DNA of 64,000 bases from Mariniphaga sediminis (lineage in GTDB: Bacteria; Bacteroidota; Bacteroidia; Bacteroidales; Prolixibacteraceae). The stretch spans positions 248,001 to 312,000 of the forward strand of contig NZ_QWET01000006.1 of the NCBI RefSeq assembly GCF_003573545.1. The letters are read 5' to 3'. A model generated the notes under the pieces. It had not been told where the DNA came from. It worked only from the letters and a program-made list of their open reading frames with translations, and ran no database searches. Of this stretch, positions 4,295-53,234 are shown in pieces. A program made the position numbers and the translations under genes. Each line of letters begins with the position of its first letter. The first letter of the stretch is position 1.

Positions 4295-4324
4295 CAAAAA
4301 TACTTTACTCCGAGCCACCACAAA
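4295..4324 (-). promoter_or_regulatory. Candidate Bacteroidetes promoter for the GH20 gene
   Basis: On the minus strand there is a TTTG box (4324-4321) and a TATTTTTG box (4302-4295) separated by 18 nt. This is close to the known Bacteroidetes consensus TTTG-N19-21-TAnnTTTG. It would give a leader of about 125 nt before the GH20 start at 4161. Confidence 0.4.
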
Positions 4325-4405
4325 TTTATTTCAAAAGACAGCACGCAAACAGTACATTTAACCGGAATAATGATACTTTTACACGGACTCAAAGGGAACA
4401 TTTAT

Positions 4406-4413
4406 TACTTTTG
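4406..4413 (+). promoter_or_regulatory. Candidate -7 box for the AraC regulator gene
   Basis: TACTTTTG matches the TAnnTTTG consensus exactly and lies 28 bases before the ATG at 4442. No good TTTG box was found at the expected distance upstream, so it is only a half match. Confidence 0.4.
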
Positions 4414-4441
4414 AAGTAAAAACCGGATATTTATATCAACA

Positions 4442-5308
4442 ATGGAAATATCAGAAATACGCTTATTTAAGGATCCCAGCAGTTCTTTTATTTATTACCA
4501 TGAAAAAAATCCTTTTTCATTATGGCATAACCACCCGGAATATGAATTTTGTTATATAAAGAAAGGGGAAGGCATCAGGACAATAGGAGACCATATCGAC
4601 CGCTTTGTTGGTGGCGACATTGTTTTATTGGGTCCCTATTTGCCCCATGAATGGAAGTGTGACCAACATTACTATGACAAAAAAGGTATGTTTACAGGCG
4701 AAGGGTTTGCGGTACAATTCCAGGAAGATTTTATTGGAGGCAAATTTTTTTCGCTGCCCGAAAATGCGAAACTAAAAAAATGCCTTAATGATGCTTCCCT
4801 GGGATGTTTATTTTATGGGGAGTTAAAAGAAAAAATCATAGAATGCATACTTGAAATGCTCCATTCAGACATTACAGGCCGCCTTTATAAGCTATTTTCA
4901 ATTTTTAATCTTTTAGCTGAGGTGGATGATTATAAGTTATTATCCAGCCCTTCTTTCCTGGAACCTTATTTAAAAAATGAAAATGAGGGATGGGACAAGG
5001 CTATCCAGTATATACTCCTGAATTTTCAGAAAAATATAAAACTTCAGGATTTGCTGGAATTGACGAACATGGGCAGTACTACTTTTTTAGAGTCTTTTAA
5101 AAAGCACTACCGGATGCCGTTCAAACGCTACCTCATAAATATCAGGATTGGCTATGCCTGCCGGCTTTTAGCTGACGATGCTTTAAATATATCCCAAATA
5201 GCTTATGAAGCCGGCTTTGAGAATCTTTCCAATTTTAACCGGCAGTTCAAGACATTAAAAGGCGTTACTCCACGGGAATATAAAAAACATATATTGGGGA
5301 TAGGGTAA
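4442..5308 (+). CDS. AraC-family transcriptional regulator with cupin sensor domain
   Basis: The 288-residue protein has an N-terminal cupin-like sensor domain (about 10-110; HNHPEYEFCYIKKGEG, then GGDIVLLGPYLPHEW, typical of sugar-binding AraC proteins). The C-terminal part has two helix-turn-helix units (about 185-285), ending in the AraC signature ISQIAYEAGFENLSNFNRQF and KGVTPREYKK. It is transcribed divergently from the GH20 hexosaminidase gene across a 280-bp gap, which suggests that it controls that gene and perhaps itself. The ligand is not known; an amino sugar released by GH20 is a reasonable guess. Confidence 0.93.
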   Translation: MEISEIRLFKDPSSSFIYYHEKNPFSLWHNHPEYEFCYIKKGEGIRTIGDHIDRFVGGDIVLLGPYLPHEWKCDQHYYDKKGMFTGEGFAVQFQEDFIGGKFFSLPENAKLKKCLNDASLGCLFYGELKEKIIECILEMLHSDITGRLYKLFSIFNLLAEVDDYKLLSSPSFLEPYLKNENEGWDKAIQYILLNFQKNIKLQDLLELTNMGSTTFLESFKKHYRMPFKRYLINIRIGYACRLLADDALNISQIAYEAGFENLSNFNRQFKTLKGVTPREYKKHILGIG

Positions 5309-36345: not shown

Positions 36346-37758
36346 CTATAAACACTTACTCAAAACCCGAAGACCTTTTTCCAAATTTTCTTTTGATAAA
36401 GAAGCATATCCTAAACGGATTCCAGATATTGATTCATTGAAACTAAACCGTTCAGGAGTATAAAAACCCACTAAATTAGAATGAGCCATTTTTTTGACCT
36501 GATACAAATCAACCTCCATTTTCGGTTTTAGCCAAAATGCCAACCCTCCATCAGGCCTTTTATACGTTATTTTATCTTTTAAATAGGTATCCAAAAGAGA
36601 GGCAAAATAATCTTTCTTTTCACTATAAAAACCAAGCATTCTTTTACGATGTCTGCGAATATCTCCTGAATCGATTAATTCCAATATAGATTGCTCCATA
36701 ATATTATCGCCTTGAATATCTATAATCTTCCGTAACTCCCCTACTTTCTTTACAAATGATACTGTACTATAAATGTATCCAATACGAATAGCAGGAGCTA
36801 TTAATTTACTTAACGTTCCTATATATACATAATTATTTATACCGTCATGCGCAGAAACAGGCATAACGGGGCGCTGCCCAAAATGATACTCATTGTCGTA
36901 ATCATCCTCGATAATTGTAAAGCCATATTTATTTGAAAGTTCGATTAATTTTAATCTCCTTTCCAAACTGAGTGTAACCGTTGTTGGATATTGATGATGA
37001 GGTGTTATATATACGGCTTTTACCAAATGCTTTTTAAGAATATTCTCTATATATTCTGTACAAATACCTTTGTCATCCACAGGGACAGGAACCAAATTAG
37101 CTCCCGCATGCCTGAAAGCGTCCCAGGCAGGCCTAAATCCCGGATTCTCAACCATAACAATATCACCTTTTTCCAAAAAGGAATGAGCTGTTAAAAACAA
37201 CGCCATTTGGCTACCCCTTGTAATACAAATTTGATAGGCAGTAGTACTCATACCTCTATTGAAATTGAGCATTTTAGAAATAGCTTCTCTAAAATTAATA
37301 TCGCCAAACTCACTGGCAAGATTCATCACTTGCCATTTAGCCTTTTTACTGAATATTCTACGATGCGCCCTTGAAAGTTCATTCACAGGAGCACATGTTG
37401 TGTCTGGCAAACCATCATCGAAAAAAATTAAATCATTTCTGAAAATTTCTGTCGTTTGTATCCGTTGCTCACCTTTTGCTTTTACAGGCTTTTTAATGGG
37501 CAAATTCATTGAAACAAAAGTCCCTTTTCGTTCAGATGAACTTAACCAACCTTCGGCCAAAAGAATATCAAATGCTTTTACAACAGTATTACGGTTTACC
37601 TTCAGCTCTATCGATAATTGGCGAGTGCCCGGGAGTGCTTCGCCTGCCTTCAAAACTCCATTTTTAATATACAGAATAATTTTATCTGCTATTTGAATAT
37701 AAATGGCTTGAGTACCATTTCTGTCAATTTTCAACTGCATCAACCAAGGTCGTAACAT
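36346..37758 (-). CDS. MocR-type regulator (GntR helix-turn-helix plus aminotransferase domain)
   Basis: The 470-residue protein has a GntR-type winged helix domain (about 14-80; YIQIADKIILYIKNG, LPGTRQLSIELKVNRNTVVKA), a linker, and a fold-type I aminotransferase-like domain. The PLP lysine is seen in YIGTLSKLIAPAIRIGY (Lys318), and the EDDYDNEY motif (about 284-291) is present. MocR/PdxR proteins bind PLP and often control a divergently transcribed gene for vitamin B6 metabolism. Here the neighbour at 37851 encodes a PNPOx-fold protein, which supports that link. An inverted repeat in the shared 92-bp promoter region is a candidate operator. Confidence 0.95.
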   Translation of the reverse strand: MLRPWLMQLKIDRNGTQAIYIQIADKIILYIKNGVLKAGEALPGTRQLSIELKVNRNTVVKAFDILLAEGWLSSSERKGTFVSMNLPIKKPVKAKGEQRIQTTEIFRNDLIFFDDGLPDTTCAPVNELSRAHRRIFSKKAKWQVMNLASEFGDINFREAISKMLNFNRGMSTTAYQICITRGSQMALFLTAHSFLEKGDIVMVENPGFRPAWDAFRHAGANLVPVPVDDKGICTEYIENILKKHLVKAVYITPHHQYPTTVTLSLERRLKLIELSNKYGFTIIEDDYDNEYHFGQRPVMPVSAHDGINNYVYIGTLSKLIAPAIRIGYIYSTVSFVKKVGELRKIIDIQGDNIMEQSILELIDSGDIRRHRKRMLGFYSEKKDYFASLLDTYLKDKITYKRPDGGLAFWLKPKMEVDLYQVKKMAHSNLVGFYTPERFSFNESISGIRLGYASLSKENLEKGLRVLSKCL

Positions 37759-37759
37759 C

Positions 37760-37803
37760 TGGACTATCTAATTAAATAAAAACTGAACTGCAAATATAGT
37801 CCA
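37760..37803. promoter_or_regulatory. Candidate MocR operator: spaced inverted repeat
   Basis: TGGACTAT (37760-37767) and ATAGTCCA (37796-37803) are perfect inverted copies, 28 bp apart. They occupy the short gap between the MocR gene and the divergent PNPOx-like gene. One arm abuts the MocR start codon and overlaps nothing else. The other overlaps a -7-like box for MocR (TATATTTG on the minus strand, 37798-37791) and lies about 10 bp upstream of a TACTTTCG box (37813-37820) for the plus-strand gene. Confidence 0.5.
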
Positions 37804-37812
37804 ATCATTCTC

Positions 37813-37820
37813 TACTTTCG
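37813..37820 (+). promoter_or_regulatory. Candidate -7 box for the PNPOx-like gene
   Basis: TACTTTCG differs by one base from TAnnTTTG and lies 30 bp before the ATG at 37851. No -33 TTTG is seen, which would fit a promoter that depends on an activator such as the MocR protein. Confidence 0.35.
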
Positions 37821-37850
37821 CCTCACATTTATAAACTAAAATATACAGCC

Positions 37851-38330
37851 ATGCAAGGACGAATGAAAAAACATCAATTAAACAGTACAGAAATAAAACA
37901 ATTATTATGGACTGAAAAAGTAGGTAGACTAGCGACATTAAATTCAGATGGTTTCCCGTATGTTGTTCCGGTACATTTTGCGTTTTATAATGACAAAATT
38001 TATATACATGGATTACCCAAAGGACAAAAAGTTGAAAATCTAAAATCGAATCCGCATGTTTGTTTTGAAGTTGATCATATGTCCGGACTCATTATGCATG
38101 AAGACCCTTGTCATGTGAATACAGCATACCAAAGTGTGGTTATTATGGGCCTGGCAAAACTAATTGAAGAAGAAAAAGAAATAATTTTAAATCAGATAGT
38201 CAATAAATATACCCCAACATTATCAGGGAAAAAACTTCCTGCCAAAATGATAAACGTAACCTCTGTCATTGAAATTAAAATAAAAGAATGTACCGGGAAA
38301 TATTATGAAAAAACAGGAGCTGTCTCTTAA
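37851..38330 (+). CDS. Pyridoxamine 5'-phosphate oxidase-like flavoprotein
   Basis: The 159-residue protein has the split-barrel FMN-binding fold: WTEKVGRLATLNSDGFPYVVPVHFAFYNDKIYIHG, then GQKVENLKSNPHVCFEVD and YQSVVIMGLAKLIEE. These are hallmarks of the Pyridox_ox_2/NimA-like group. Such proteins bind FMN, and some reduce nitro compounds; the exact reaction here is not known. The first ATG (37851) and a second at 37863 are both possible starts. It is divergent from the MocR-type regulator gene, which probably controls it. A hairpin terminator follows after about 180 bp. Confidence 0.88.
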   Translation: MQGRMKKHQLNSTEIKQLLWTEKVGRLATLNSDGFPYVVPVHFAFYNDKIYIHGLPKGQKVENLKSNPHVCFEVDHMSGLIMHEDPCHVNTAYQSVVIMGLAKLIEEEKEIILNQIVNKYTPTLSGKKLPAKMINVTSVIEIKIKECTGKYYEKTGAVS

Positions 38331-38512: not shown

Positions 38513-38546
38513 AAAAGCCTGCAAATCACGCGACTTACAGGCTTTT
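38513..38546. terminator. Terminator hairpin between convergent genes
   Basis: AAAAGCCTG (38513-38521) and CAGGCTTTT (38538-38546) form a perfect 9-bp stem with a 16-nt loop. With A and T runs at the two ends, it can serve both strands: the PNPOx-like gene from the left and the acyltransferase gene from the right. Confidence 0.7.
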
Positions 38547-38604: not shown

Positions 38605-39717
38605 CTAAATTTTAATAAATATGCGTTTCCGGTACAAAATCCAGCCGATGCCCCAGCACACAGAACAAAATAACAACGAGAACAACAACGAACCGCCATA
38701 ATCACCGGCCATGGGTTGAAACCAATTTGTAAATATCCAACCTTTCAAACTTATTATCTCAGCGGATGCTGGAAGGGGAATTTTTATATGCTTTAATGTG
38801 TTTGAAAGAAATTCGGCAAAAACATATAAAAACAGGGGGTTCATACCAAAAACCCGAAACGGTGCTATCCAGTTTTTGTATTCCCTGATATCAATTACCC
38901 ACAGCAGTATCCCAAGCAGAAGCATTGCCAAACCGGAAGAATAAACAACATACGAACTGGTCCAAAGGGGTTTATTAATCGGAAAGGCCACATCCCATAT
39001 TCTTCCCAAGATGATTCCTGCAATACCAAAAATCATCAGTTTTTTAACCGCGCTCAACTTGTTTTCAGATAAGTCAATCCACCTTCCGGCAATATATCCC
39101 AGTAACACGTTAGCTACAGAAGGCAAAGTCGACAGCAAACCTGTCTGGTCGAATATGGCTCCTCTGAACTTCCGCAAGTGATTTGCCCCCAAAACAAATG
39201 CATCAAATTTTCCAACAAAATTACCTTCAAGTGAAAATGGATCATCACCGCCGAAAATCGCCAGGATAGCCCAATACCCCAACAAAATTATGGCTGTGGC
39301 TAATCTTAAATTGGTGTAGCTTAACCCGAGAACGATAAATGATGCCACACCATAGGCCAGGGCAATCCTGTTCATAACTCCCATAATCCGAAGGTGACTA
39401 AAGTCCAGGCTAAAAGAAGCGTAAATACTTATGGAAATACCTATTAAAAAGATAATTACTATTCGCCTCACTATTTTTGCAATCACTTGTTTTGTTAGTA
39501 CGCTACCGTATTTTTTAAATGAATACCACATCGCCGAGCCCATAATAAACAGGAAAAACGGGAAAACAAGGTCCGTAGGTGTACATCCGTGCCATGGTGA
39601 ATGTCCCAAAGGGGTATATACATGCTTCCAACTTCCCGGGTTGTTTACAATTATCATAAGGGCGATTGTTAATCCCCGAAATACGTCAAGAGCTACTAAT
39701 CGTTTCGGATTCTTCAT
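38605..39717 (-). CDS. Inner-membrane acyltransferase, HGSNAT/DUF5009-like
   Basis: The 370-residue protein is a polytopic membrane protein with about 10 helices. It opens with RLVALDVFRGLTIALMIIVN, the family signature, and TDLVFPFFLFIMGSAMWYS follows. DUF5009 and heparan-alpha-glucosaminide N-acetyltransferase proteins share this layout; the human enzyme acetylates glucosamine at the non-reducing end of heparan sulfate across the membrane. In Bacteroidetes PULs they occur beside other glycan genes, with a proposed role in acetylating a sugar or a cell-wall precursor. It ends the module 3 gene run, about 105 bp after the M14 peptidase gene. The acceptor is unknown. Confidence 0.9.
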   Translation of the reverse strand: MKNPKRLVALDVFRGLTIALMIIVNNPGSWKHVYTPLGHSPWHGCTPTDLVFPFFLFIMGSAMWYSFKKYGSVLTKQVIAKIVRRIVIIFLIGISISIYASFSLDFSHLRIMGVMNRIALAYGVASFIVLGLSYTNLRLATAIILLGYWAILAIFGGDDPFSLEGNFVGKFDAFVLGANHLRKFRGAIFDQTGLLSTLPSVANVLLGYIAGRWIDLSENKLSAVKKLMIFGIAGIILGRIWDVAFPINKPLWTSSYVVYSSGLAMLLLGILLWVIDIREYKNWIAPFRVFGMNPLFLYVFAEFLSNTLKHIKIPLPASAEIISLKGWIFTNWFQPMAGDYGGSLLFSLLFCSVCWGIGWILYRKRIFIKI

Positions 39718-39821
39718 ACTATTTACATCGTTACTTTTTAACCGTAAATCATGGAATACGAACCATATTCCAACGTGGTAATTTTTATTTTAACCTGGCT
39801 GACTGTTTTATGAGGTAGATT

Positions 39822-40982
39822 CTACTTTTTCCACAACAATCTTTCTTCTAAAATGTAATCCACCATTTCATCATACAACAATAATTGTATATCCAGAATG
39901 TCTTCGTAAGTGACAAATGGCTCAGGAATCTTATCTGAAATGGTCCCGTCATTGCATTCGTATGCAAAAGCCATGGTACCGGAAATATTGTGCAACGCAC
40001 ATACTAAATTGAAGCTTGTTCTCGGTGGAAATTTTTCATCTTCTATTTTAGGTTTCCGAAGCAGGTTGTCGGGTGTAAATGATACATTTTCTTTTTTATA
40101 CCTGTTATTTAAACGCTGCTCTAAGTCGTAAACCCTCTCTTTCATATACCTGGCAGTATACGCCGGATTGTAAATGGCAGGAGGTGTTTCGTGCGAATGG
40201 AGCGTAACAGCCATATCCGGAGCTTCGGTACGCGTAATTTCCAGGATTGCTTTTGTTTCCTCTGCCATCGGATGGAAAAATTCATCGTGCATAATATTGA
40301 TTCCATCGTCATTAAAATAAGCTCCAAGAATGCCCACATCTCCTTTCATGGGGTGATTCGACTTTGCCCCGGGCCATCCCCACATGGAGCCGTCTTTGCG
40401 GGTTCCCTGCCCGTATTTTGTTACCATATCTTCATGCAACCCCAAAAAACTATCGTACGGGCACCTCTTTCGCCCATCAGGATTGGCACACGGAATTATA
40501 ATCACCCTGCATTTCTGCAGCTTATTTCTTAAAGAACTCCAGTCTTTGCCACGGTAATCTTTTCCGGTTTCCATAATATGAACCAGGTTGACCAACCCAA
40601 CTATCCCTTCCACTTCCTGCCCATGAACCGGACCGATAATGAAAATAACCGGTTTGGTGTCCTCGCCTTTTTCTGCATAATAGGCCGGGTTCCAGGCAGC
40701 AACAGCTGAATTGTAATTTGCCTGTGATTTAAAATCGTCCTTTTCGCCATAGTAAACAGCATAAACAGGAAATCCCCCCGGGGATGTGGCTATTGTTTCT
40801 ACTTTCCCATGCTTTACAAGTTTCAACTCGTCTTCAATATCAGATAACCCGGATTTAAAAAATTCCGGAAGGTCAGTATTATTGGGAGGATCGCCCGCAT
40901 CGATTGGTATCTGGGAATAGGAATTTATGAATGAAAATAAACTGATTAAAATGGTTCCAAAATAAAAAAGTACTGCTTTCAT
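39822..40982 (-). CDS. Secreted M14-family zinc carboxypeptidase
   Basis: The 386-residue protein has a signal peptide (about 1-23, ending SYSQ). The zinc-site motif IGPVHGQEVEG carries His120 and Glu123, and the third ligand lies in VTLHSHET (His262 or His264). CANPDGRKR is the substrate-binding region. M14 enzymes remove C-terminal residues from peptides; members that are secreted by PULs may trim glycopeptides or peptidoglycan stems. The gene stands 39 bp after a propeller gene and precedes the acyltransferase gene. Peptidase activity is well supported by ligands; the substrate is inferred. Confidence 0.92.
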   Translation of the reverse strand: MKAVLFYFGTILISLFSFINSYSQIPIDAGDPPNNTDLPEFFKSGLSDIEDELKLVKHGKVETIATSPGGFPVYAVYYGEKDDFKSQANYNSAVAAWNPAYYAEKGEDTKPVIFIIGPVHGQEVEGIVGLVNLVHIMETGKDYRGKDWSSLRNKLQKCRVIIIPCANPDGRKRCPYDSFLGLHEDMVTKYGQGTRKDGSMWGWPGAKSNHPMKGDVGILGAYFNDDGINIMHDEFFHPMAEETKAILEITRTEAPDMAVTLHSHETPPAIYNPAYTARYMKERVYDLEQRLNNRYKKENVSFTPDNLLRKPKIEDEKFPPRTSFNLVCALHNISGTMAFAYECNDGTISDKIPEPFVTYEDILDIQLLLYDEMVDYILEERLLWKK

Positions 40983-41021
40983 AGTATGAATATTTAAAAT
41001 GATTAATGCACTGTTAAAAAA

Positions 41022-43457
41022 TTACTCTTTTCGATAACCAAATTCCGGTGAAATAATATCCCCGAAAGCTTGCTCATCTCCAAAAGCAGGTCCATACCAC
41101 ACCCCACCTCCGAATGTTACGATAAATATCTTCTCCGGATTTCGTGGATCCATATCCACCCTTTTGCCCCATTTGAAATTGTATCCGTTGATGCGTTCCC
41201 AGGTTTCACCCCTGTCGGTTGAGCGGTACGCGGAGCTGTTAAAACCACAGGCATAATAAACTTTAGTACGATGGTCGTAGGTTATGTCGTGAATGTGTTG
41301 GTCTTTTTGCAAAACCGGCTTCCAAGTTTCCCCTTCATCTTTTGAAAGAAATATCCCGCCGCCCATATCAGGGTTAAACCGGCCACCGGTACTCCTACCC
41401 CACGCAGACAATAGCAGGCAGGCAGGATCTTCCGGATCAATCACTAAACTGGTTGGCCCGTTTGTTCCTGAAGGCAGATGTATTGGGTTCCAGGATTCGG
41501 CATGGTCATCGGATCGGTAAATTGCCCCGTCTCCCTTAGTACCAATGCTACCATCGTCACTTCGCCTGCTTTGGATAAGAAACAATACACCATCTTCCCT
41601 CCGGACAATCCTCCAGGCGAATGGCTCTTCATTTTTTAAGCCTCTATTTTTCAGTTGCCAGTTGATACCTCCGTCGGTCGATTTATAAACCCCTTTGCCA
41701 AAAGCACAGGAATACAATGTCCGGGACTCTTTATTGCTCGTTGGGTCGATTAGAATATGTGTAATGGCCGCCTCTCCGATATCGGCGCTAACCGGGCTCC
41801 AGCTTTTTCCTCCATCAACGGTCATCACCACCCCTCCTGTAAACCTGGCAATTCCATCCCTTCGCCACATTTTGGGGCGGGGCAGATCGTGCGTGCCACT
41901 CATTGCAGCCCAGGCTTTTCCCGGTACATCGGGGTCAAAAGTCAGCCAGTATGTGCTGTTTTGCCAGTTGCGGGGGATGCCGTTATTTTTTGTACCACTT
42001 GACCAGCTTTCCCCTCCGTCGTTGCTTACCATCAGGCCAATGTCAGTATTTGCAAGAAAAATGTGGTTCGTGTCAAAAGGATCAAATACCACAGCATAAC
42101 CGGTATTCACTTCCAGCCCTCGTGATATCCAGCCGCCACCAGGCTTTTTTTGGGTGTACACCTGTTCCCATGTTTCCCCCCTGTTCGTTGTTTTGACCGT
42201 TCGGCCAAAGTCAGTGGCATAAGCCACATCCGGATTGGATGCCGATACGCCAATGGAAAAAGGATTTTCTCCCCATGTGGGCCCGAAACGTTCATTCAAC
42301 CATCCTCCCCTAAAATTAGCGGAAGGAATATTTCCATTACCGGTTATTTGGTCTTTCCACGAAAGTTCCCAGGTAAGTCCGTAATCTTTACTCACTGCCA
42401 CGCCCAGGCAGTTGGTATCGTTAGCTGTTTTCATGTTGGCGTAGGAGACATATACGACCTCCGGATGTTGTGCGCTGGTTGCGATACTCCTCCATTCCGG
42501 GAAATCATTCTTTCCATCTTGAAATGCGACCAAACCACCCTGCCGGTTTTCCCAACTTTCGCCTCCGTTTTCAGTATAGAAAATACCTGATTTACACCCC
42601 TTCGCATTAAAGTATCCTTTTCCTGAAATGGCATAAATGATAAACCTCTTTTTAAGCCGGTCGGCTCCCCCGGCAAATTCTGTAAACATGTCAACACCAT
42701 CCGGTCCGCTATTCGTTTTCCAGGTGTTGTTTTTTCTCACCTTTATAAAATTCTTTCCGGCGATATAGATCGTACGGTTTTCTTTCGGCGTAAACGGATC
42801 GATATAAATATTTTTTGCTTCCCCCTCCAGTGCAGTTGATTTTGACCAGCTTTCTCCACCATTGTCTGAAATAAAAAAGCCCGATAATTCATCCACTGTG
42901 ATAACGGCATACAGCTTTTTTGAGTCTTCCGGATCAACTGCGAATGCGTAAACCTTCCGATATGTACTGTCGCTGGTAACTACAGTTTCCCCGGCATGGT
43001 CCCCTTTGGAAACGACACCGGTAATTTCACCGGGAGGCGGATATAGTACACTCCAGGTATTTCCGCGGTCGGTGCTTTTGAACAAGGCAATGGAGTTAGC
43101 ATAAACGGTATTAGGATCAATCGGGTCGAACACATAAAAATTTACGAACCCACGAAGGTTGAACCTGTGCCAGGATTCCCCTCCATTGTATGTTACAAAC
43201 GACCCGGTCATGTCGCAACTTACAAAAGCATATTCCGGATCTTTCGGGCTAACAGTGGGATGAAACATGGCGCCACCACCGCCCGCACCAACAAATCCCC
43301 ATGCCTCATTTCTTCCGTTGGAGTTCACAGGCTTACTTTCCTTTGTTGATGAAGTACAACCATAAATGATGGCCATTGCAACAATGAATACCCCAATCAA
43401 AACACAAGTTCTCCCAACCGGATGCTGTTTGGGTTCCGGTTTTATCGCGTAATCCAT
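41022..43457 (-). CDS. Large Asp-box beta-propeller lipoprotein, paralogue A
   Basis: The frame is open to 43505; I prefer Met17 (43457), 17 bp after the stop of the upstream gene, or Met15 (43463). A signal with a lipobox (FIVAMAIIYGC) is followed by many sialidase-type Asp-boxes, such as SDNGGESWSKS, TENGGESWENR, SKDYGLTWELS, SNDGGESWSSG, STDGGINWQLK and STDRGETWERI. About 14 blades are likely, as in tandem seven-bladed propellers like GH74 xyloglucanases, VPS10/sortilin or HCF136-type proteins. I could not assign catalytic acids. It is paralogous to the gene upstream, for example in GGGAMFHPTVSPKD / GGGSTFIPTFSYH near the N-terminus. It may be a glycan hydrolase or a surface binder. Confidence 0.85.
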   Translation of the reverse strand: MDYAIKPEPKQHPVGRTCVLIGVFIVAMAIIYGCTSSTKESKPVNSNGRNEAWGFVGAGGGGAMFHPTVSPKDPEYAFVSCDMTGSFVTYNGGESWHRFNLRGFVNFYVFDPIDPNTVYANSIALFKSTDRGNTWSVLYPPPGEITGVVSKGDHAGETVVTSDSTYRKVYAFAVDPEDSKKLYAVITVDELSGFFISDNGGESWSKSTALEGEAKNIYIDPFTPKENRTIYIAGKNFIKVRKNNTWKTNSGPDGVDMFTEFAGGADRLKKRFIIYAISGKGYFNAKGCKSGIFYTENGGESWENRQGGLVAFQDGKNDFPEWRSIATSAQHPEVVYVSYANMKTANDTNCLGVAVSKDYGLTWELSWKDQITGNGNIPSANFRGGWLNERFGPTWGENPFSIGVSASNPDVAYATDFGRTVKTTNRGETWEQVYTQKKPGGGWISRGLEVNTGYAVVFDPFDTNHIFLANTDIGLMVSNDGGESWSSGTKNNGIPRNWQNSTYWLTFDPDVPGKAWAAMSGTHDLPRPKMWRRDGIARFTGGVVMTVDGGKSWSPVSADIGEAAITHILIDPTSNKESRTLYSCAFGKGVYKSTDGGINWQLKNRGLKNEEPFAWRIVRREDGVLFLIQSRRSDDGSIGTKGDGAIYRSDDHAESWNPIHLPSGTNGPTSLVIDPEDPACLLLSAWGRSTGGRFNPDMGGGIFLSKDEGETWKPVLQKDQHIHDITYDHRTKVYYACGFNSSAYRSTDRGETWERINGYNFKWGKRVDMDPRNPEKIFIVTFGGGVWYGPAFGDEQAFGDIISPEFGYRKE

Positions 43458-43474
43458 AAGCATATTTTCAGTTC

Positions 43475-45886
43475 CTACCATTCTTTTTCCGGTATTCCGT
43501 GCCAAACGCTTGAACCGAAGGTGGTGATATATATTTTCTCCGGTTCGTTTTGGTCAACTATAATTCTGTGCCCCCAATGAAAATCGTAATCTTTTATTTT
43601 CTCCCAGCTTTTCCCATAATCGTCACTACGCCAGGCTGCGTTATTAAATGTGCAGCAATAAATTCTTCCGGGATGATAAGGGTCAGTTGTTACATCATAC
43701 ACATATTGGTTTTTATCAAATAGGGAAGTCCAGGTTTCCCCTCCGTCTTCTGACACAAAAACTCCTCCCTGCATATTGATCACTTCATTCCCTCCGGTCT
43801 CCTCTGCAATATCTCCTCCAACCAGGTCGCTCAGTTGAATATCGGCCCAACACCCCAGATAAATCCGTTTTGGATTCTGCGGATCACAGGCAACTCCATT
43901 AGGAAAAATGGGGTCTTCGGCAACATCAAGCTTTTTCCAGCTTTCTGCTTTATTGTTTGACTTGTATATTGCCCCGGAATAATATCCCCGTCCTTTTACA
44001 CCATCGGTATGTTTGGGCGTAGGACTTACCGTCAGGAACAAGCTTCCGTCGGGCGCCATGGTGAGTTCAAAAGCACAGGTGCTGCCATCAATACCTGTGT
44101 TTTTAAGTTCCCAAGACTTGCCATCATCAACTGATTTATATACTCCTTTGTTATATACAGCTGCGTAGATTGTCCGGTTATTGGGCGCCGATCCCTGGTC
44201 AAGTACCATTGAAGTTACAGGCGAGTCAAACCCCATTCCTTCATTGACCGGCCTCCAGGTCTTTCCACCATCAAGAGACAAGCATATACCTCCTTTTGCT
44301 GACTCTTTCCAATGCGGATTACGTGTCATTTTACCACGGGGAAAATCGTGCATCCCGGACCAGCCCGACCATATCTTATCTTTTATATCGGGATCGAATA
44401 CAACCCAATAGCAGGTGTTACTCCATTCAACAGGCACTCCTTCGACTGATCGGCTCCAGCTTTTTCCACCATTAAATGAATGGTGGTATCCAATATCGGT
44501 GTAACTAATAGCTATATGACTGCTATCAAACGGATCAAAATGAACACCAAATGAAGTAGTTACATCCATTCCTCTGCTCGTGAACGTTCCATCAGGTTGT
44601 TTCTCGCTGTATATTTCAGCCCAGTTTTGCCCTCCGTCGGTAGTTTTCATTGTCCGGTACCAGTCAGTAACAATAGCCGTTTGCCCGTCGTACGGTGCAA
44701 CCCCCACATCCAACAAACGGATATATTCGCCTCCAAACGCATTTTCCACCCAGGCATCTTTTAAGTTTGAAATTCCGATGCCGTCTTTTACTCCATATTG
44801 CCCGGAGCCTCCCCCACCTTTCCAGACCCATTCCCAGGTTTTACCGGTATCATTTGTTTTCAATACACCATACCAGTATGCCATTGTTCCGTCCTCTTTT
44901 TTTTCCTGATAGCGATTGCATACAAGGTAGGCATGCCGGGCATCAAACTCAGCACATGAAATCATTGAATAGCTTGGCATTAACCCGGATTTATCGTTGG
45001 TAACAATTGAATCTGTTAACCGGTTCCAGGGAATTCCAAAATCGTTGGAAAACCAGACTTCGGTATATCCAAACTCTCCCTGTATCGGTTTATTTTGATT
45101 GTGGTGCAATGCATAAAATATTTCCTTGCCGTTGCTTTGTTCGATTCCTGCGGCAAAGGAGAATGCCGGTGTCATTTCTTTTGGAAGTTTCTTTTCTATA
45201 AATGTATTTGAGGATTTATCGAAAATACAGATTGAATGTGACGTAAAAATATAAACGTCATTCTTTAACCCGGTTTTATTGGTATAAATAAAATCAATTT
45301 GTTGATTAAGATCTTTTTTGTGCCACGATTTGCCTGAATTTGAGGAATAATAAAAAAACGATCCCATACTAAAATAGATTGCTCCTGCAATTTCCGGATC
45401 TACACAAATAGTCTTTATCCTTTTAAATTCAGCACCGTATAATGATTTTTCGTTTGTTTTTACCTGGTAATTTGCATGGTCGCCGATGTACTCTTCCCGA
45501 ATAACATCTTCCTTTGAAGGGAAGATTTGTTCCCAGTTTTTTCCCCCATCAGCAGAGTATTTTAAAACATTCGAGCCGATATAAATCTTATTGGCATCCT
45601 TTGGGTCAAAGGCATAGGCTGTTGCTCCATTGGGCACATTGATTTGTTGATACGAAGCCCCTCCGTTTTTAGTAAGGTAGGAACCTGTCATGTCGCAACG
45701 TACCATAAAATTATCAGGGGAATGATATGAAAAAGTTGGGATAAATGTTGAGCCTCCTCCGCCAGGGCCTAATTTTTCCCAATTCACGGGTTGTTCAGCG
45801 ACTTCCTTTTTTGTAGTATGACAGCCAACCAGCAAAATCGCCATGCACAAAAGGTTTATTCCTCTATTCCAAATGCAATAGGTCAT
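43475..45886 (-). CDS. Large Asp-box beta-propeller lipoprotein, paralogue B
   Basis: The 803-residue protein has a lipobox (LCMAILLVGC, Cys22) and then a chain of Asp-box repeats: SADGGKNWEQI, SSNSGKSWHKK, TNDTGKTWEWV, TTDGGQNWAEI, SFNGGKSWSRS, SLDGGKTWRPV, SVDDGKSWELK and SEDGGETWTSL. The order and spacing match paralogue A along the whole length, including WGHRIIVDQNEPEKIYITTFG versus WGKRVDMDPRNPEKIFIVTFG near the C-terminus. The two are an old tandem duplication. In GH74-type tandem propellers the cleft between the propellers cleaves beta-glucans, but identity with that family was not established. It lies 283 bp after susD. Confidence 0.85.
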   Translation of the reverse strand: MTYCIWNRGINLLCMAILLVGCHTTKKEVAEQPVNWEKLGPGGGGSTFIPTFSYHSPDNFMVRCDMTGSYLTKNGGASYQQINVPNGATAYAFDPKDANKIYIGSNVLKYSADGGKNWEQIFPSKEDVIREEYIGDHANYQVKTNEKSLYGAEFKRIKTICVDPEIAGAIYFSMGSFFYYSSNSGKSWHKKDLNQQIDFIYTNKTGLKNDVYIFTSHSICIFDKSSNTFIEKKLPKEMTPAFSFAAGIEQSNGKEIFYALHHNQNKPIQGEFGYTEVWFSNDFGIPWNRLTDSIVTNDKSGLMPSYSMISCAEFDARHAYLVCNRYQEKKEDGTMAYWYGVLKTNDTGKTWEWVWKGGGGSGQYGVKDGIGISNLKDAWVENAFGGEYIRLLDVGVAPYDGQTAIVTDWYRTMKTTDGGQNWAEIYSEKQPDGTFTSRGMDVTTSFGVHFDPFDSSHIAISYTDIGYHHSFNGGKSWSRSVEGVPVEWSNTCYWVVFDPDIKDKIWSGWSGMHDFPRGKMTRNPHWKESAKGGICLSLDGGKTWRPVNEGMGFDSPVTSMVLDQGSAPNNRTIYAAVYNKGVYKSVDDGKSWELKNTGIDGSTCAFELTMAPDGSLFLTVSPTPKHTDGVKGRGYYSGAIYKSNNKAESWKKLDVAEDPIFPNGVACDPQNPKRIYLGCWADIQLSDLVGGDIAEETGGNEVINMQGGVFVSEDGGETWTSLFDKNQYVYDVTTDPYHPGRIYCCTFNNAAWRSDDYGKSWEKIKDYDFHWGHRIIVDQNEPEKIYITTFGSSVWHGIPEKEW

Positions 45887-45982
45887 GGGTTTAAATTCGT
45901 TATTTATTATTTTGAATCAGGCGTTTAAGTACTGCTGTTACATTCATTATCAGCTACCGGGATATAGTACAGCCCGAAGGAA

Positions 45983-46002
45983 CAAACAGGGCATTCTGTT
46001 TG
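45983..46002 (-). terminator. Small hairpin after susD (module 3)
   Basis: CAAACAG (45983-45989) and CTGTTTG (45996-46002) form a 7-bp stem with a 6-nt loop, in the gap between the module 3 susD and the propeller genes. No T tract follows. It may be a weak terminator or a processing site. Confidence 0.35.
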
Positions 46003-46169
46003 ATTCTTTCTTTGCATTACTGAACTCTGTCGCTCGTTTCCACCCAAAATGGAATTGAGTATGTTAAACCTCAGCAACGCTTAAAAATATCAAACAGAAA
46101 TACCCTATATCCTGTTAAACTAAAATCAAAGCAGTAATTATGTCATTAAAAATTACAACCATCAAATTT

Positions 46170-47615
46170 TTATTCACTATACCCCGGATTTTGTTCCAGT
46201 AACTCGTTTAATTCCAAATCAACTTCAGGGATTGGGAATAAATAATCATCCTCACTAAAATTGGCCAGGTAATCGGGCCGGGTTGTTACTTCATCCAGTA
46301 TCCTTTTCCGGCAGATGTCAAACCAGCGGTCGCCATTTTCGAAAACCAGTTCCCAGCTTCTTTCCTGTATCACTGCCTCATCAAATTCTGTTTGCGACAT
46401 AGAGGTGGTCATTTTGGGATGCAAAGGGTTTTCAACGTACCCGTTTGCCCTGTCGATCACTTGATTGACAGCATCTACCGCTTGCTGGGTAGGCCCGCCG
46501 TTGGCCATATTGGCCGCTTCGGCATAAATTAAAAGCACATCGGCATATCGAATTATTGGCCAGTTAGCTGTTGATGCGTATCCGTTGAAATCATCCAATG
46601 AAATGTAAAAGAAGAATTTTTTACAAAATGGCGTTTGTTCCGGGAAATCAGAATAATGCGTTCCATTCCATTCGGTCATAAGATAAGCATCTTTTCTTGC
46701 CTGTGCCGGCCAGCTTTTTTCGAAAGTGGTGTCTATTGCAGCATCGCCCCAACCGCCATCACCATACACCGAAGGAGCCCAAATCTGAGGATCGGTAGTT
46801 TTATCATCAGAGGTAGAATTGTACCCCCACATCATTTCCGGTCCGTATTCGTTTTCCGGTTTGAAAACATCAACGACATCCGTAACTAACCAATATTTAC
46901 CTGATTCCATAACTTCCCGGGCCATCTGCTCTGCTTTTTGGTAGTTCGAGGTTTCATTTAAAGGGAATGTAGCCATGGTTAGGTAAACCTTTGCCAATAT
47001 ACCTTTTGCAGCTCCCTGGGTTGGTTTGCCGGGTGCGTCGGGCCAGGACAAGGGAAGTTTTGATGCGGCAAATGTCAAGTCACTCACGATTAAACTATAC
47101 ACATCAGAAACTGAAGACCTTGGCATCGGGTTGGAAATCGGGTCCGGCGATTCATCCGTAATTAACGGAACTCCACCAAACATCCGTACCAACATAAAAT
47201 AATTGTGGGCACGTAAAAACATTCCCTGGGCAAGCAGCCTGTCAATCGTTTCCTGATCTTCGCCTTTTACACGTCCTGCTTTGATTGCCGCAATTGCGCC
47301 ATTGATACTTTGAATGGATGCGTAATGAACATTCCAAAGCCCATCTCCATTATCGGCGCCAATATTTAAGTTTCCTCCAACAAACTGGTCGTCATGGCGG
47401 AAAGGGTTATAACCATAACCATAGCCAGACCAATAGTCCCATAGGTGATTTAAGGATGCCGCGTAAGAAGCCTCGACCTGTGCAGCCGAACTTGAGAAAG
47501 TTTCAGGAGAAACAAAACTAAAAGGTTGTTCATCTAAATTTTTACACGAAAAACCTGTAAAAAAGACGGATAGAAGTAAAGCACAACGCAGTGCGAAATT
47601 TATATTTTTTTTCAT
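46170..47615 (-). CDS. SusD/RagB-type glycan-binding lipoprotein (module 3)
   Basis: The 481-residue protein carries a lipobox (FFTGFSC, Cys24), then KNLDEQPFSFVSPETFSSS, the common SusD N-terminal pattern. The helical middle reads MFLRAHNYFMLVRMFGGVPLI with the AKGILAKVYLTMA segment, and the C-terminal SusD domain reads RYADVLLIYAEAANMA and ERSWELVFENGDRWFDICRK. It belongs to the classic SusD_RagB group and differs from the SusD-like_2 type of module 2. It pairs with the SusC gene 11 bp upstream. The ligand is unknown. Confidence 0.97.
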   Translation of the reverse strand: MKKNINFALRCALLLSVFFTGFSCKNLDEQPFSFVSPETFSSSAAQVEASYAASLNHLWDYWSGYGYGYNPFRHDDQFVGGNLNIGADNGDGLWNVHYASIQSINGAIAAIKAGRVKGEDQETIDRLLAQGMFLRAHNYFMLVRMFGGVPLITDESPDPISNPMPRSSVSDVYSLIVSDLTFAASKLPLSWPDAPGKPTQGAAKGILAKVYLTMATFPLNETSNYQKAEQMAREVMESGKYWLVTDVVDVFKPENEYGPEMMWGYNSTSDDKTTDPQIWAPSVYGDGGWGDAAIDTTFEKSWPAQARKDAYLMTEWNGTHYSDFPEQTPFCKKFFFYISLDDFNGYASTANWPIIRYADVLLIYAEAANMANGGPTQQAVDAVNQVIDRANGYVENPLHPKMTTSMSQTEFDEAVIQERSWELVFENGDRWFDICRKRILDEVTTRPDYLANFSEDDYLFPIPEVDLELNELLEQNPGYSE

Positions 47616-47626
47616 GATAAAACAGT

Positions 47627-50600
47627 TTAGAATGAAACATCAATTCCGAAAGTGAATGTTTTCGCAGTGGGGTAATTACTCAGGTCAACACCGATCTGGG
47701 CATCGTTTCTATTGTATGCACTCACTTCAGGATCGTATCCTGAATAATCTGTAAGAGTAATCAGATTGGTAGCGCTTATATATAATTTCGCACTGCCCAG
47801 GCCAATTTTTTGTGTTAAGCCGGCAGGAATGTTATAAGCCAGTACGATATTCTTAAGCCTGACATAAGAGCCATCTTCAACCCACCGCTGCAAACGTTCG
47901 GAATCTCCACTTCCCAGATTAATTGTACTAACAAGGGCCGCATCCATCCTGGTTTTTTCATCAATAAAAGCGGGTACATCCGTGTTTTGGTTTTCAGGAG
48001 TCCAACGGTCAAGTAACCGTGCACTTGTTCCTTCACTTCCTCTCTCAAGACGTATTCTTCCCTGGTTAAATATATCGTTTCCTTTCGAGCCTTGTATAAG
48101 GATAGTCATATCGAAGTTTTTATATGACAAGCTATTAGTCCATCCAAAAATGAAGTTCGGCATAGAGTTCCCGATAATTTTTATGTCTTCTGTATTAATT
48201 TTACCGTCTGCATTCGTATCCGTGTATTTAATATCGCCAGGCAGCTGCCCGAATTTTGCAGCCTGAGTTGCTTCACTTTCTTTCCAGGTGCCCTCGGTTC
48301 CGTATCCATACATTTGGCCAAACGGCTCGCCAACGCGCAGCTGCATAAAACCATTTTTAAGACTATACCCGCCATAAGTTGTTCGAAACCTCAACGTTTC
48401 ATTTTCACCTAAATCCAGTACTTTATTCCGGTTCCATGAAATATTAAACCCGGTATTCCATCTAAAAGCTCCCACGAAAGGATCGCCGGTGATTGATAAT
48501 TCGACCCCTTTGTTTTCCACAGAACCAACATTGTCGATAACACTTCTAAGCCCGGTATATCTTGGTAAGGTGCGATTTAAAAGTAAGTCTTCTGTCTTTT
48601 TCTTATATATATCAACAGTAGTAGATAACCGTCCTTTGAAAATGCTTGCATCCAAACCAACGTTAAGCTGCGTTGTACTTTCCCACTTAAGGTTTGGATT
48701 GGCGGCGCTGGCAATTCTGAACCCTAAATTTGTTGAGCTCCCCCCGTTGTATGGGTAGTCGGAACCGGATTCCATTCTGGCAATTGTTTCATACGGGCTA
48801 ATTGCCTGGTTTCCTGTAATCCCCCAGCTTCCTCTAAATTTCAGGTTTGTAAACAGGTTTAAATTCTGAACAAAGGGTTCTTTAGACACCCTCCATGCGA
48901 GAGAGGCAGATGGGAAATACCCCCATTTATTGTTTTTTCCAAACACAGATGAACCATCCGCACGGTAGCTCGCTGTTAGCATATATTTATCGGCATAAGC
49001 ATAGTTAACCCTGCCTAAATAGGAGTTAATCACCCTTTCAGAAACACTTGAATATTTAGACGAAATTTCATCTGCTCCGCCTAAATCATTTATTCCGGTC
49101 TGGTCAACGGTAAACTTTGAGGCCACTAAACCGGAACCCTGATATTTATCGTACTGTTGCTCTGCAACAGCTATTGCCGTTAACTTATGAGTACTATTAA
49201 AGGTTTTATCGTAGGAAAGAATATTCGAATTTTGATAATGCGAATTTACTTGTTCGGTGAGAGTACCATATCCCACAACCCCTCCAACGGGTTTACCTTC
49301 CCAGGTTTTGCTGTTGTAGTAACTCTTATCATTAACATTGGAAATAGCTGCTCCTCCCGAAATTTTCAATTTCAACCCATCAATAATTTCATATTCAATG
49401 TATGTATTGACATTATTTCTGATGGTGTGATTCTGGATATCGGGCTCCACAGTTGCAGCCAGCGGATTCCAGGTGTCGTACGCTCCATATCCAACCGGGT
49501 GGCTATTGTAATTTCCGTTGGCATCGTAAGGAGGCGTTGTAGGATCCCAGCGGGGGGCAATGTTTACCGCCTGCCCCAGAAAACTTAATGCAGTCCCGCC
49601 GCCATAAGGAGGAGAACTTCCAAATTCTTTTGAACCTCCCCAATTCAATTCAAAGCTCACCTTTTCAGTAATGTCAGCGCTAAAGTTTGCCCGAAGCGTA
49701 AAACGCTCGTATTCAGAATTCAGCAAAATCCCTTGTTGATCCAGGTATCCCCCGGATACCATATATCGCATATTTTCCGTTCCTCCCCCCATCGACAATT
49801 GATGATTTTGGATTGGAGCTATCCGGTATATTTCATCCTGCCAATCGGTTCCGCCGGTTCTTTCCAGTTCCTGAATTTGCTGTTCCGTAAAAATGGGCAC
49901 CGGGGTTCCCGACCCGTTTTGGGTGGCTCTAAATGCATTACGTGTCCTAGCATAATCAGCAGCCCCCATTATATCAAGCTTAGATCGAATAGACTGGGAA
50001 CCGTAACTATAACTGTAGTTAATGGTGGGTTTCCCTTTTTTACCCCTTTTGGTTGTAACCAGGATTACCCCATTTGCCCCCATCGATCCGTAAATGGCAG
50101 TAGCAGAAGCATCTTTCAAAATCTCTAATGATTCAATATCATTGGGATTAATTGAATTAAGGTTTCCACCTTGCAGTCCATCAATTACCACCAGGGCATT
50201 ATTCCCTCCATTGATTGAGTTCATCCCCCTGACACGGATGGTTGTTTGTGCACCGGGAGCACCGGCAGTATTCAATACCAAAACACCGGAAGCACGTCCC
50301 TGCAAAGCCTGGTCGACCCGTTGCATGGGCATTTGCGTAAGTTCATCTCCTTTTACCGAACTTACAGAACCAGTAATGTCACTTTTCTTTTGAGTGCCAT
50401 AACCTATGGCAATAACTTCTTCAATACCAATTGTACTTTCATACATTACCAGGTTGATATTGGTTTTTCCTGAAACATTAACTTCCTGCGTTTCCATGCC
50501 CATAAAGGAAAACTGAAGAACATCCCCTTCTGCAACATCAGATAAAGTGTATTTTCCTTCAGCATTTGTAATGGTTCCCTGTGTGCTTCCTTTGACTATA

Positions 50601-51082
50601 ATTGTCACACCTGGCAAAGGCAAACCATTCCTGTCTGTCACCTTTCCGGAAATTTCCTTTTTCTGTTGAACAGCATCCTCTATAACAGACACACTGGGCA
50701 CCCTTACTTTTTCTTCTTTGGATACTCCAATAACTATTTGTCTGTTATTTATAAAATAGATGTTATTGGTACCTGCAAATAACTTATCCAAAATGGATTC
50801 AATTTTCTCATTTTTAACATGGACAGAAACTTTTCTATCTAAATCTATTTGCTGTTTCTGATAGAAAAAAATGAATTCACTTTGTTCTTCAATCTCAGAA
50901 ATTATTTCCCGAATTGTTTTGTTTTCCAATTCTAAAGAAAATTTAGTTACCTGAGAATAGGAATTGGAACTAACAGCAACTGTAGTGCTTAAAATGATAA
51001 GAAACAGAATTAAACGCATAATTTGCATTACTTTAGAGAGATAAACATACAGTTCTCCCCATGGTTTTAGCATTTTTTTCAT
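47627..51082 (-). CDS. SusC-like TonB-dependent transporter (module 3)
   Basis: The 1151-residue protein has a basic leader and a signal (LILFLIILSTTVAVSS), an STN domain (about 50-105; LENKTIREIISEIEEQSEF), and a carboxypeptidase-regulatory-like domain (about 145-220; SGKVTDRNGLPLPGVTIIV). A TonB-box-like EEVIAIGYGTQKKSD follows, then the plug (RASGVLVLNTAGAPGAQTT, GSMGANGVILVTTKRGK). The barrel ends with TFGIDVSF and the usual terminal Phe. Glycan import with SusD across the outer membrane, and signalling to the FecR of this module through STN, follow from the family. It starts 109 bp after fecR, past a strong terminator. Confidence 0.97.
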   Translation of the reverse strand: MKKMLKPWGELYVYLSKVMQIMRLILFLIILSTTVAVSSNSYSQVTKFSLELENKTIREIISEIEEQSEFIFFYQKQQIDLDRKVSVHVKNEKIESILDKLFAGTNNIYFINNRQIVIGVSKEEKVRVPSVSVIEDAVQQKKEISGKVTDRNGLPLPGVTIIVKGSTQGTITNAEGKYTLSDVAEGDVLQFSFMGMETQEVNVSGKTNINLVMYESTIGIEEVIAIGYGTQKKSDITGSVSSVKGDELTQMPMQRVDQALQGRASGVLVLNTAGAPGAQTTIRVRGMNSINGGNNALVVIDGLQGGNLNSINPNDIESLEILKDASATAIYGSMGANGVILVTTKRGKKGKPTINYSYSYGSQSIRSKLDIMGAADYARTRNAFRATQNGSGTPVPIFTEQQIQELERTGGTDWQDEIYRIAPIQNHQLSMGGGTENMRYMVSGGYLDQQGILLNSEYERFTLRANFSADITEKVSFELNWGGSKEFGSSPPYGGGTALSFLGQAVNIAPRWDPTTPPYDANGNYNSHPVGYGAYDTWNPLAATVEPDIQNHTIRNNVNTYIEYEIIDGLKLKISGGAAISNVNDKSYYNSKTWEGKPVGGVVGYGTLTEQVNSHYQNSNILSYDKTFNSTHKLTAIAVAEQQYDKYQGSGLVASKFTVDQTGINDLGGADEISSKYSSVSERVINSYLGRVNYAYADKYMLTASYRADGSSVFGKNNKWGYFPSASLAWRVSKEPFVQNLNLFTNLKFRGSWGITGNQAISPYETIARMESGSDYPYNGGSSTNLGFRIASAANPNLKWESTTQLNVGLDASIFKGRLSTTVDIYKKKTEDLLLNRTLPRYTGLRSVIDNVGSVENKGVELSITGDPFVGAFRWNTGFNISWNRNKVLDLGENETLRFRTTYGGYSLKNGFMQLRVGEPFGQMYGYGTEGTWKESEATQAAKFGQLPGDIKYTDTNADGKINTEDIKIIGNSMPNFIFGWTNSLSYKNFDMTILIQGSKGNDIFNQGRIRLERGSEGTSARLLDRWTPENQNTDVPAFIDEKTRMDAALVSTINLGSGDSERLQRWVEDGSYVRLKNIVLAYNIPAGLTQKIGLGSAKLYISATNLITLTDYSGYDPEVSAYNRNDAQIGVDLSNYPTAKTFTFGIDVSF

Positions 51083-51191: not shown

Positions 51192-52370
51192 TTACTCTTT
51201 TATTTTAATTACTATATTATTTTCTCGCTTTTGAATTTCAAATGGAATAGAAAACGAAATATTCTCAAGTACCTGGTGCAGCTCTTCTGCTAAATCGAGT
51301 TTCCCTGTAAACAATGTTTTCTTCCCGTTTCCTTCTACAATTATTTTTTGATTATAAAATCGCTCCAGTTTTTTCAGAACTTCGCTAATGGTTTCATCTT
51401 CAAACATGAGATAGCCATTTATCCAGGAAGAATACAATTCGATATTCACTTTATCTTTCTCGATCAAACGGTCTTCTTTATTGTACGTTATGCGTTCTCC
51501 GGGATTAAGATCAATTTCGCGGGCAAAAGTTTTGTTCTCTTTAGCCGACACTTTCCCTGAAAGTAAAATGGTTTGGGAAGTTTGATCCCCCGGATAGGAA
51601 GTTACGTTAAAACGTGTACCGGTTACTTTAATCCTCATATCCGAAATGATGACATGAAAAGGCTGCGAAGGATTGGATGTAACATCAAAAAATGCTTCTC
51701 CTGATAAATATACTTCGCGCTTATCATCCTCAAAACGGGAAGAATATAATAACTGGCTTCCTGCATTTAGCCAAACAGTTGTTCCATCGGCCAATGTAAC
51801 TTTCGATTGTTTCCCGTATGGAACAATCAATCGGTTCGGTTCAGCATCTCTTGTATTCTCATTGTTTTTCAGCAGCCTGTCATTTACCCGTATTTCTTCC
51901 CCTTTTTTACCGTAAACAATCTCTGAATGATCGGAGTCTATTTTTATTTCTTCCCCATTATCCAAAATAAGCTTGGTTTCAGTGTAACCGGTTAATTCAT
52001 TTGTTGGAAGCATAAATTCTGAATTATTCCCGGAAAAATAATACCATACCGAGGCCACCAGAAATATTACTACAATTGATGCCGCAATGCGTAAAAACAA
52101 ATTTGGATGAAAACGTCTTTTCTTTTTGCTTTCATTCAAAATATTTTCCCAGGTTTGTAATTTCCGGATTGGTTCGGTTTTTATTTTTTCATCGTCGAAA
52201 AAGCGAATGAGTTGACGCGCCTTGTCAAAATCCTCCTTACAATCAGGAAATTCCTTTATCATCATCCGATAGTAGTCATCCAGATCTGGTCTTTCATTCC
52301 TTACCCAACCGCAAAAATCGATATTGAGTAAAAAATCTCCGAGTGAATATTTCTTGAAATCTTTTTTCAT
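51192..52370 (-). CDS. FecR-family anti-sigma factor (module 3)
   Basis: The 392-residue protein has the usual parts: cytoplasmic N-terminal domain, membrane helix (about 97-112; LRIAASIVVIFLVASVWYYF), FecR domain with LIVPYGKQSKVTLADGTTVWLNAGSQL, LSGEAFFDV and VTGTRFNVTSY, and a C-terminal DUF4974 part that begins LMFEDETISEVLKKLERFY. A stretch of about 60 residues between helix and FecR core (LTGYTETKLILDNGEEIKID and following) is longer than in the other two FecR proteins here and is typical of a FecR subgroup in the Bacteroidales. It should control the ECF sigma factor encoded 237 bp upstream. Confidence 0.96.
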   Translation of the reverse strand: MKKDFKKYSLGDFLLNIDFCGWVRNERPDLDDYYRMMIKEFPDCKEDFDKARQLIRFFDDEKIKTEPIRKLQTWENILNESKKKRRFHPNLFLRIAASIVVIFLVASVWYYFSGNNSEFMLPTNELTGYTETKLILDNGEEIKIDSDHSEIVYGKKGEEIRVNDRLLKNNENTRDAEPNRLIVPYGKQSKVTLADGTTVWLNAGSQLLYSSRFEDDKREVYLSGEAFFDVTSNPSQPFHVIISDMRIKVTGTRFNVTSYPGDQTSQTILLSGKVSAKENKTFAREIDLNPGERITYNKEDRLIEKDKVNIELYSSWINGYLMFEDETISEVLKKLERFYNQKIIVEGNGKKTLFTGKLDLAEELHQVLENISFSIPFEIQKRENNIVIKIKE

Positions 52371-52607: not shown

Positions 52608-53234
52608 TCAGGAGAACGATATATTCCGGGACCGCATGAGCATAAAAAAAACAAGATTGGAATATTCACTATTTCCAAATTTCTCTTTTAAACTTTTGAT
52701 TGTTCGGTACAGCAACGTTCTGCAAGATTCGACGCTGATATTCATCAGTTCTGATATCTGAGCATATTCAAACCCACAGTTAAACCGTAAATACAAAGCT
52801 TCTTTTTGTTTATTGGTAAGGTTTTCTTTTACCATATTCAAAAACCTGTCGCGTGTTTCTTCCGTATCTTTCGAAATAACAGTATGCTCAATACTGTATG
52901 TGATATTAAAATTTATTGTGCCCGACTCTGCAACGGGAATCAGCTTCTGAGTCTTTCGTTGCTGATACAATATTTGATTTTTTATGGATTTTAACAGGAA
53001 GAACTTAATATTGTTAATCTGTTTCCCATTCCCTTTATTTCGAATTAAATCCACAAAAATATTTTGAATACAATCTTCAACAAGGTAGCGGTCGGATGAA
53101 TATTTCATGCCGAAATTTAACAGGACATCAAAAAAGTCGAAATATAAAGCGGAAAGTGCTTCCCGATCTCCGTCAATGAATTTTTGCCATATATCCTTAT
53201 AAGAATCATTTTTCGTACTTCCAGACATAGACAT
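52608..53234 (-). CDS. ECF RNA polymerase sigma factor, FecI-like (module 3)
   Basis: The 208-residue protein shows region 2 (REALSALYFDFFDVLLNFGMKY, VEDCIQNIFVDLIRNKGN) and region 4 (NLTNKQKEALYLRFNCGFEY, then ELMNISVESCRTLLYRTIKS). It should activate the susCD genes of module 3 when freed from FecR. Two Met codons near the start (Met1, Met3) are both usable. The gap of 237 bp to fecR is larger than in the other modules and shows no extra gene. Confidence 0.93.
   Translation of the reverse strand: MSMSGSTKNDSYKDIWQKFIDGDREALSALYFDFFDVLLNFGMKYSSDRYLVEDCIQNIFVDLIRNKGNGKQINNIKFFLLKSIKNQILYQQRKTQKLIPVAESGTINFNITYSIEHTVISKDTEETRDRFLNMVKENLTNKQKEALYLRFNCGFEYAQISELMNISVESCRTLLYRTIKSLKEKFGNSEYSNLVFFMLMRSRNISFS

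Follow-up and report, generated by a model that had tools for sequence, protein, structure and literature searches.

The window analysed here is a 64,000-nucleotide stretch of the Mariniphaga sediminis genome (contig NZ_QWET01000006.1). The locus of interest in it has eight genes on the minus strand, transcribed in the order ECF sigma factor, FecR, SusC, SusD, propeller A, propeller B, M14 and NagX/HGSNAT-type acyltransferase, and a stem-loop past the last of them:

52608..53234, minus strand: ECF sigma factor, upstream regulator (Pfam Sigma70_r4_2, E 3e-10; position kept in Sunxiuqinia elliptica, G126, and Maribellus luteus, G038)
51192..52370, minus strand: FecR-type anti-sigma factor (Pfam FecR, FecR_C)
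47627..51082, minus strand: SusC-type TonB-dependent transporter, 1151 aa (Pfam STN, CarbopepD_reg_2, Plug and TonB barrel)
46170..47615, minus strand: SusD-type lipoprotein (Pfam SusD_RagB, E 3.9e-30)
43475..45886, minus strand: propeller A, GH74-related lipoprotein, 803 aa, with catalytic-type D65 (45692-45694) and D464 (44495-44497)
41022..43505, minus strand: propeller B, GH74-related lipoprotein, 827 aa, with catalytic-type D98 (43212-43214) and D488 (42042-42044)
39822..40982, minus strand: secreted M14 zinc carboxypeptidase-like protein (Pfam M14, E 2.9e-9)
38605..39717, minus strand: NagX/HGSNAT-type membrane acyltransferase, H39 standing in for the catalytic His (NCBIfam NagX, E 3.3e-43, below cut-off)
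38513..38546, minus strand: intrinsic terminator-like stem-loop past the acyltransferase gene (15-pair stem and T-rich tail)

All the ORFs named in the initial annotation (SusC, SusD, two paralogous propeller lipoproteins of about 800 residues, M14 and an HGSNAT/DUF5009-type acyltransferase, on one strand) were found in their places. The extent it gave, 38605-51082, does hold these genes, but the unit starts earlier, with the FecR and ECF sigma factor genes. The two propellers are paralogues, 34-36% identical, and a lipobox-type Cys closes the signal peptide in both; the 827-aa length of propeller B is counted from a doubtful TTG start, its ORF overlapping the end of propeller A. SusC and SusD are 11 bases apart, and apart from the propeller overlap the remaining gaps from SusC on are of at most about 285 bases. 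Given these short gaps, the overlap and the terminator-like stem past the last gene, the genes from sigma factor to acyltransferase are likely to form a single operon. With its adjacent susC and susD, a regulator and surface lipoproteins, the locus has the make-up of a SusCD polysaccharide-utilisation locus.

Elsewhere in the window, positions 6687-36110 hold a separate sulfatase-rich SusCD locus, with six sulfatases, a DHDPS/NanA-like aldolase, a BNR_2 sialidase-like protein, an FAD oxidoreductase, uncharacterised proteins of 697 and 804 aa and its own SusD, SusC, FecR and sigma factor. Between the two SusCD loci, at 36346-38330, a MocR/PdxR-type regulator is divergent from a Nim-like flavin/PPOX protein. 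Positions 395-5308 carry a further amino-sugar gene, encoding a GH20 hexosaminidase (2569-4161), together with an AraC regulator (4442-5308) and an ECF sigma/FecR pair.

In the propellers, Pfam recognised nothing beyond BNR and sortilin repeats. Single-sequence PDB searches with propeller A, propeller B or M14 gave almost no matches, phmmer with the two propellers returned no GH74 entry at E 0.001, and GH74 was reached by profiles only. The AlphaFold2 model of propeller B (pLDDT 81.2, pTM 0.81) has strands that form, in our own grouping, 14 blades and thus two seven-bladed propellers. Its best 25 Foldseek matches in the PDB were all GH74 (E 1.6e-26 to 2.2e-19, TM(target) 0.61-0.69), with 14-18% sequence identity to GH74 in the structural matches, and the best non-GH74 match came at E 3.5e-17. 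Built from 14 relatives, a family profile matched PDB xyloglucanases of GH74 with E 1.6e-21; built from 43 diverse relatives, it had a top E of 1.2e-22. The family profile reached 2cn2 at E 1.2e-22, 6p2l at 3.9e-19, 4lgn at 3.5e-18 and OXG-RCBH at 5.6e-18. Profile-profile comparison with Bacteroidota GH74 genes by hhalign gave a probability of 99.6 and E 3.2e-24 over 595 columns. The statement that the module lacked any recognisable glycan-cleaving enzyme is thus contradicted by Foldseek, by the family profile and by profile-profile comparison.

The propellers resemble the endo- and exo-xyloglucanases XGH74A (2cn2), OXG-RCBH (1sqj) and NkGH74 (6p2l) in their Asp-boxes and their tandem arrangement of two seven-bladed propellers, in a GGGG motif that precedes the base-position Asp in blade 1, and in length and Asp spacing; by blade count, their putative acid Asp also falls at the corresponding turn of blade 8. 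They differ from them by a structure-based identity of about 14-18%, by escaping single-sequence searches, by the absence of xyloglucan-type partners, by the A/B paralogue pairs and by invariant motifs of their own (CDM, TDxG and HDxPxxKM). Since the identity is remote and single sequences miss GH74, the family is related to GH74 and lies outside GH74 proper at the sequence level. The suggestion that the propellers might be enzymes of an uncharacterised family gains from the GH74 fold, the two invariant catalytic-type Asp and the high divergence, and the counter-claim, that they belong to a characterised glycoside hydrolase family, holds by half, the homology to GH74 being clear but remote. 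No description of the propeller family was found in the literature covered, which included few subscription papers, and an earlier CAZy assignment is possible; the propellers form an apparently undescribed GH74-related family.

To map the family, one genome per species was scanned, which yielded 106 matching loci, of which 80 were kept. A contig scan with the propeller A sequence alone had found no relatives, but an alignment query did recover them. Many 1100-aa BNR proteins matched only part of the query and were excluded as belonging to another family. Within the Bacteroidota, loci were found in Dyadobacter, Chryseolinea, Agaribacillus, Flagellimonas, Chitinophagaceae and Prolixibacteraceae; outside it, many were in Acidobacteriota and few in Planctomycetota and Gemmatimonadota. 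With a strong match in only 3 of 396 sampled genomes of the phylum, the window genome counted, the family is widespread but sparse. Propeller A forms a separate clade of 19 members (support 0.99), and both A and B are present in 16 loci, with A preceding B in almost all of them; the pair is old. Acidobacteriota propellers are mostly single and without SusD, and among the 80 related loci SusD is found in 17 and SusC in 15.

The closest loci are those of S. elliptica (NZ_FONW01000003.1), a genus placed in Prolixibacteraceae, and M. luteus (NZ_QWGR01000026.1), where the gene order from sigma factor through FecR, SusC, SusD, A and B to M14 is identical to that of the window. In these two genomes and in G001, the SusC copies adjoining the propellers are 70-74% identical to the window SusC, and the SusD proteins 74-76% identical to the window SusD. 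After M14, both operons extend into DUF5107-TPR, DoxX, Gfo/Idh, Nramp-like, M20, epimerase and DHDPS-like genes, and end with NagX and GH20. Three further loci (G001, G093 and G013) have their SusCD-propeller genes next to DeoR, AgaS-like SIS, GatZ/KbaZ-like and PfkB genes, with a class II aldolase additionally in G093, GH20 in G001 and G093, and GH123 in G001. This gene set corresponds to the tagatose-phosphate route for N-acetylgalactosamine. GH123 is a family of beta-N-acetylgalactosaminidases (PMC11087588).

Of 140 genomes of the bacterial family, 9 carry propellers and 131 do not. GatZ was present in 6 of the former and 3 of the latter (Fisher p 7e-7, or 0.003 when counted by genus, in a count that mixes two subfamilies), and GH123 in 7 and 41, respectively (p 0.008), both tests ignoring shared ancestry. 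On another contig, M. sediminis itself carries AgaS-type and GatZ-type genes that adjoin each other. No GalNAc catabolic genes were found in the window locus, nor in the two closest loci, where only NagX and GH20 are present. The commonest neighbours over the 80 loci were DUF4832 (29), an outer-membrane barrel (23), Amidohydro_2 (21), DUF5107 (20) and DeoR (18), while AgaS-like SIS genes, about 30% identical, lay near the propellers in 14; those of Acidobacteriota could have another hexosamine-phosphate role, and other sugars would be compatible with neighbours like Hepar_II_III, DUF4832, DUF2961 and Amidohydro_2. The amino-sugar neighbours in relatives point to an amino-sugar glycan rather than xyloglucan, and the most likely substrate is a glycan rich in hexosamine, probably containing GalN or GalNAc.

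Two side observations concern these neighbours. DUF4832 (L034:181-1671) has a weak GH42-like N-terminal match and is a candidate glycosidase; phmmer against the PDB found no relative of it. A pair of epimerase-like and DHDPS-like genes (L038:6157-8273, L042:9289-11383, L173:6903-9245) accompanies the propellers in several loci and M14 in a genome without propellers.

The M14 protein has its zinc site complete, as had been annotated: 11 homologues all retain H120, E123 and H262, in the HxxE...H arrangement, and the general base E342. Its structure model is weak (pLDDT 68.5), and Foldseek matches say only "M14 carboxypeptidase". At L171 and L172, close orthologues of the secreted protein adjoin V-type ATPase-like operons. 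It has been proposed that the system scavenges glycopeptides or bacterial cell wall, M14 trimming the peptide and the propellers cutting the attached glycan. Such a division of work is consistent with the M14 gene in the operon here and in S. elliptica and M. luteus (78-79% identical to the window protein), with the M20 peptidase that follows in the latter two, and with a known glycopeptide and GalNAc locus, BT4240-50 of Bacteroides thetaiotaomicron, as outlined in PMC11992087. In that outline, the mucin/GalNAc locus shares with ours the SusCD genes and the association of a peptidase with GalNAc metabolism, but encodes an M60-like peptidase, a galactosidase, an alpha-GalNAcase and a GalNAc kinase where the window has GH74-like propellers, M14 and NagX. 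However, 11 of the 15 genomes of the bacterial family with M14 homologues have no propellers, most relatives encode the orthologue at another place, several of them in unrelated contexts such as beside V-type ATPase-like genes, and no peptidoglycan enzymes were found nearby. Since M14 adjoins propellers in three genomes only (those of the window, S. elliptica and M. luteus), it argues only weakly for a substrate of glycopeptide type, a reading that we consider unlikely, the context favouring hexosamine, mostly GalNAc. Whether the genes travel together in relatives differs by gene: SusCD accompanies the propellers, M14 in most cases is not with them, and the acyltransferase is with them in some.

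In the family profile, D98 of B and D65 of A, in the motif "CDMTG", fall on the base position of XGH74A, which is the Asp of "ARADIGG" and is Ala in entry 2cn3 ("ARAAIGG"). In GH74 the acid belongs to blade 8, with which the second propeller begins ("LMSAMGDYDGFRH" in one genome); counting blades in the model places D488 ("TDIG") at the corresponding turn. The spacing from base to acid Asp would be 390 in B and 399 in A, near the 361-388 of five GH74 genes; the competing Asp D540, also invariant, would give 442. As hhalign on the second propeller half left the GH74 acid blade unaligned and D488 was placed by blade counting, we infer D488 as the putative acid. D98, D488, H539, D540, K545 and M546 are conserved without exception across 99 distinct family members from several phyla, a pattern more typical of enzymes than of surface glycan-binding proteins that share the GH74 fold and leave cleavage to enzymes encoded elsewhere. 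A purely binding role would agree with the general knowledge that many Asp-box propellers bind without cleaving, with the lack of another endo-enzyme in the window operon, and with the GH123 genes elsewhere in the genome and the GH20 gene of the window; against it also stand the single, SusD-less propellers of Acidobacteriota, and we regard it as decidedly improbable.

GH74 is known for its high specificity for xyloglucan. Degradation of xyloglucan or another beta-1,4-glucan by the propellers is nevertheless very improbable: although the top structural matches are xyloglucanases, identity is about 17%, a GH74 query found nothing in the M. sediminis genome at E 1e-20, the partners in relatives are amino-sugar genes, and the alpha-xylosidase, alpha-fucosidase and beta-galactosidase that are encoded with GH74 in the xyloglucan locus of Xanthomonas (PMC8245568) are absent.

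The last gene of the operon was compared with NagX, the glucosamine transacetylase, and HGSNAT. The protein is similar to them over most of its length and has the catalytic-type His, but scores 148.2 bits against NCBIfam NagX, below the equivalog cut-off of 480, and barely exceeds the Pfam DUF5009 cut-off. HGSNAT structures match it at E 1.9e-20, with "GHSPWHG" aligned to "KHASWNG", so that the His motif is kept with respect to human HGSNAT. NagX was proposed by Price et al. to acetylate periplasmic glucosamine with cytoplasmic acetyl-CoA (PMC9007349). By analogy, a NagX-type gene fits a substrate with free amino sugars, the acceptor being GlcN or GalN; no link between NagX and galactosamine was found in the literature covered, which included few subscription papers.

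Taken together, we favour a model in which paired GH74-related surface glycosidases act with SusCD uptake of a hexosamine-rich glycan and NagX re-acetylation, and which we hold, as a whole, to be evenly poised between right and wrong. Propellers A and B would be the glycan-cleaving enzymes of a polysaccharide-utilisation operon, the active-site cleft lying between the two joined seven-bladed propellers and one Asp from each (D98 and D488 in B, D65 and D464 in A) acting as putative base and acid. With their GH74 fold, invariant Asp and lipobox, they would by analogy with GH74 be inverting glycosidases of the cell surface. SusCD, as is known for this family, would import the glycan fragments; M14 may remove an amino-acid or peptide substituent in the periplasm, and NagX may acetylate the free hexosamine with cytoplasmic acetyl-CoA before uptake. 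Final catabolism would proceed via enzymes of the AgaS and KbaZ types, whose genes lie elsewhere in the genome.

More tentatively, and somewhat less likely than not, the propellers could be a new glycoside hydrolase family in which the GH74 double-propeller fold no longer acts on glucans but on galactosamine-rich polymers, be they microbial exopolysaccharide or archaeal or animal chondroitin-like chains; the Bacteroidota A/B pair would then be an ancient one with divided labour, coupled to periplasmic re-acetylation. A widespread sister family in amino-sugar contexts, if true, would add a new class of substrates to those of the double-propeller fold, assign a function to more than 100 proteins so far annotated just as BNR or sortilin-like, and provide candidate enzymes for galactosamine-rich polymers.
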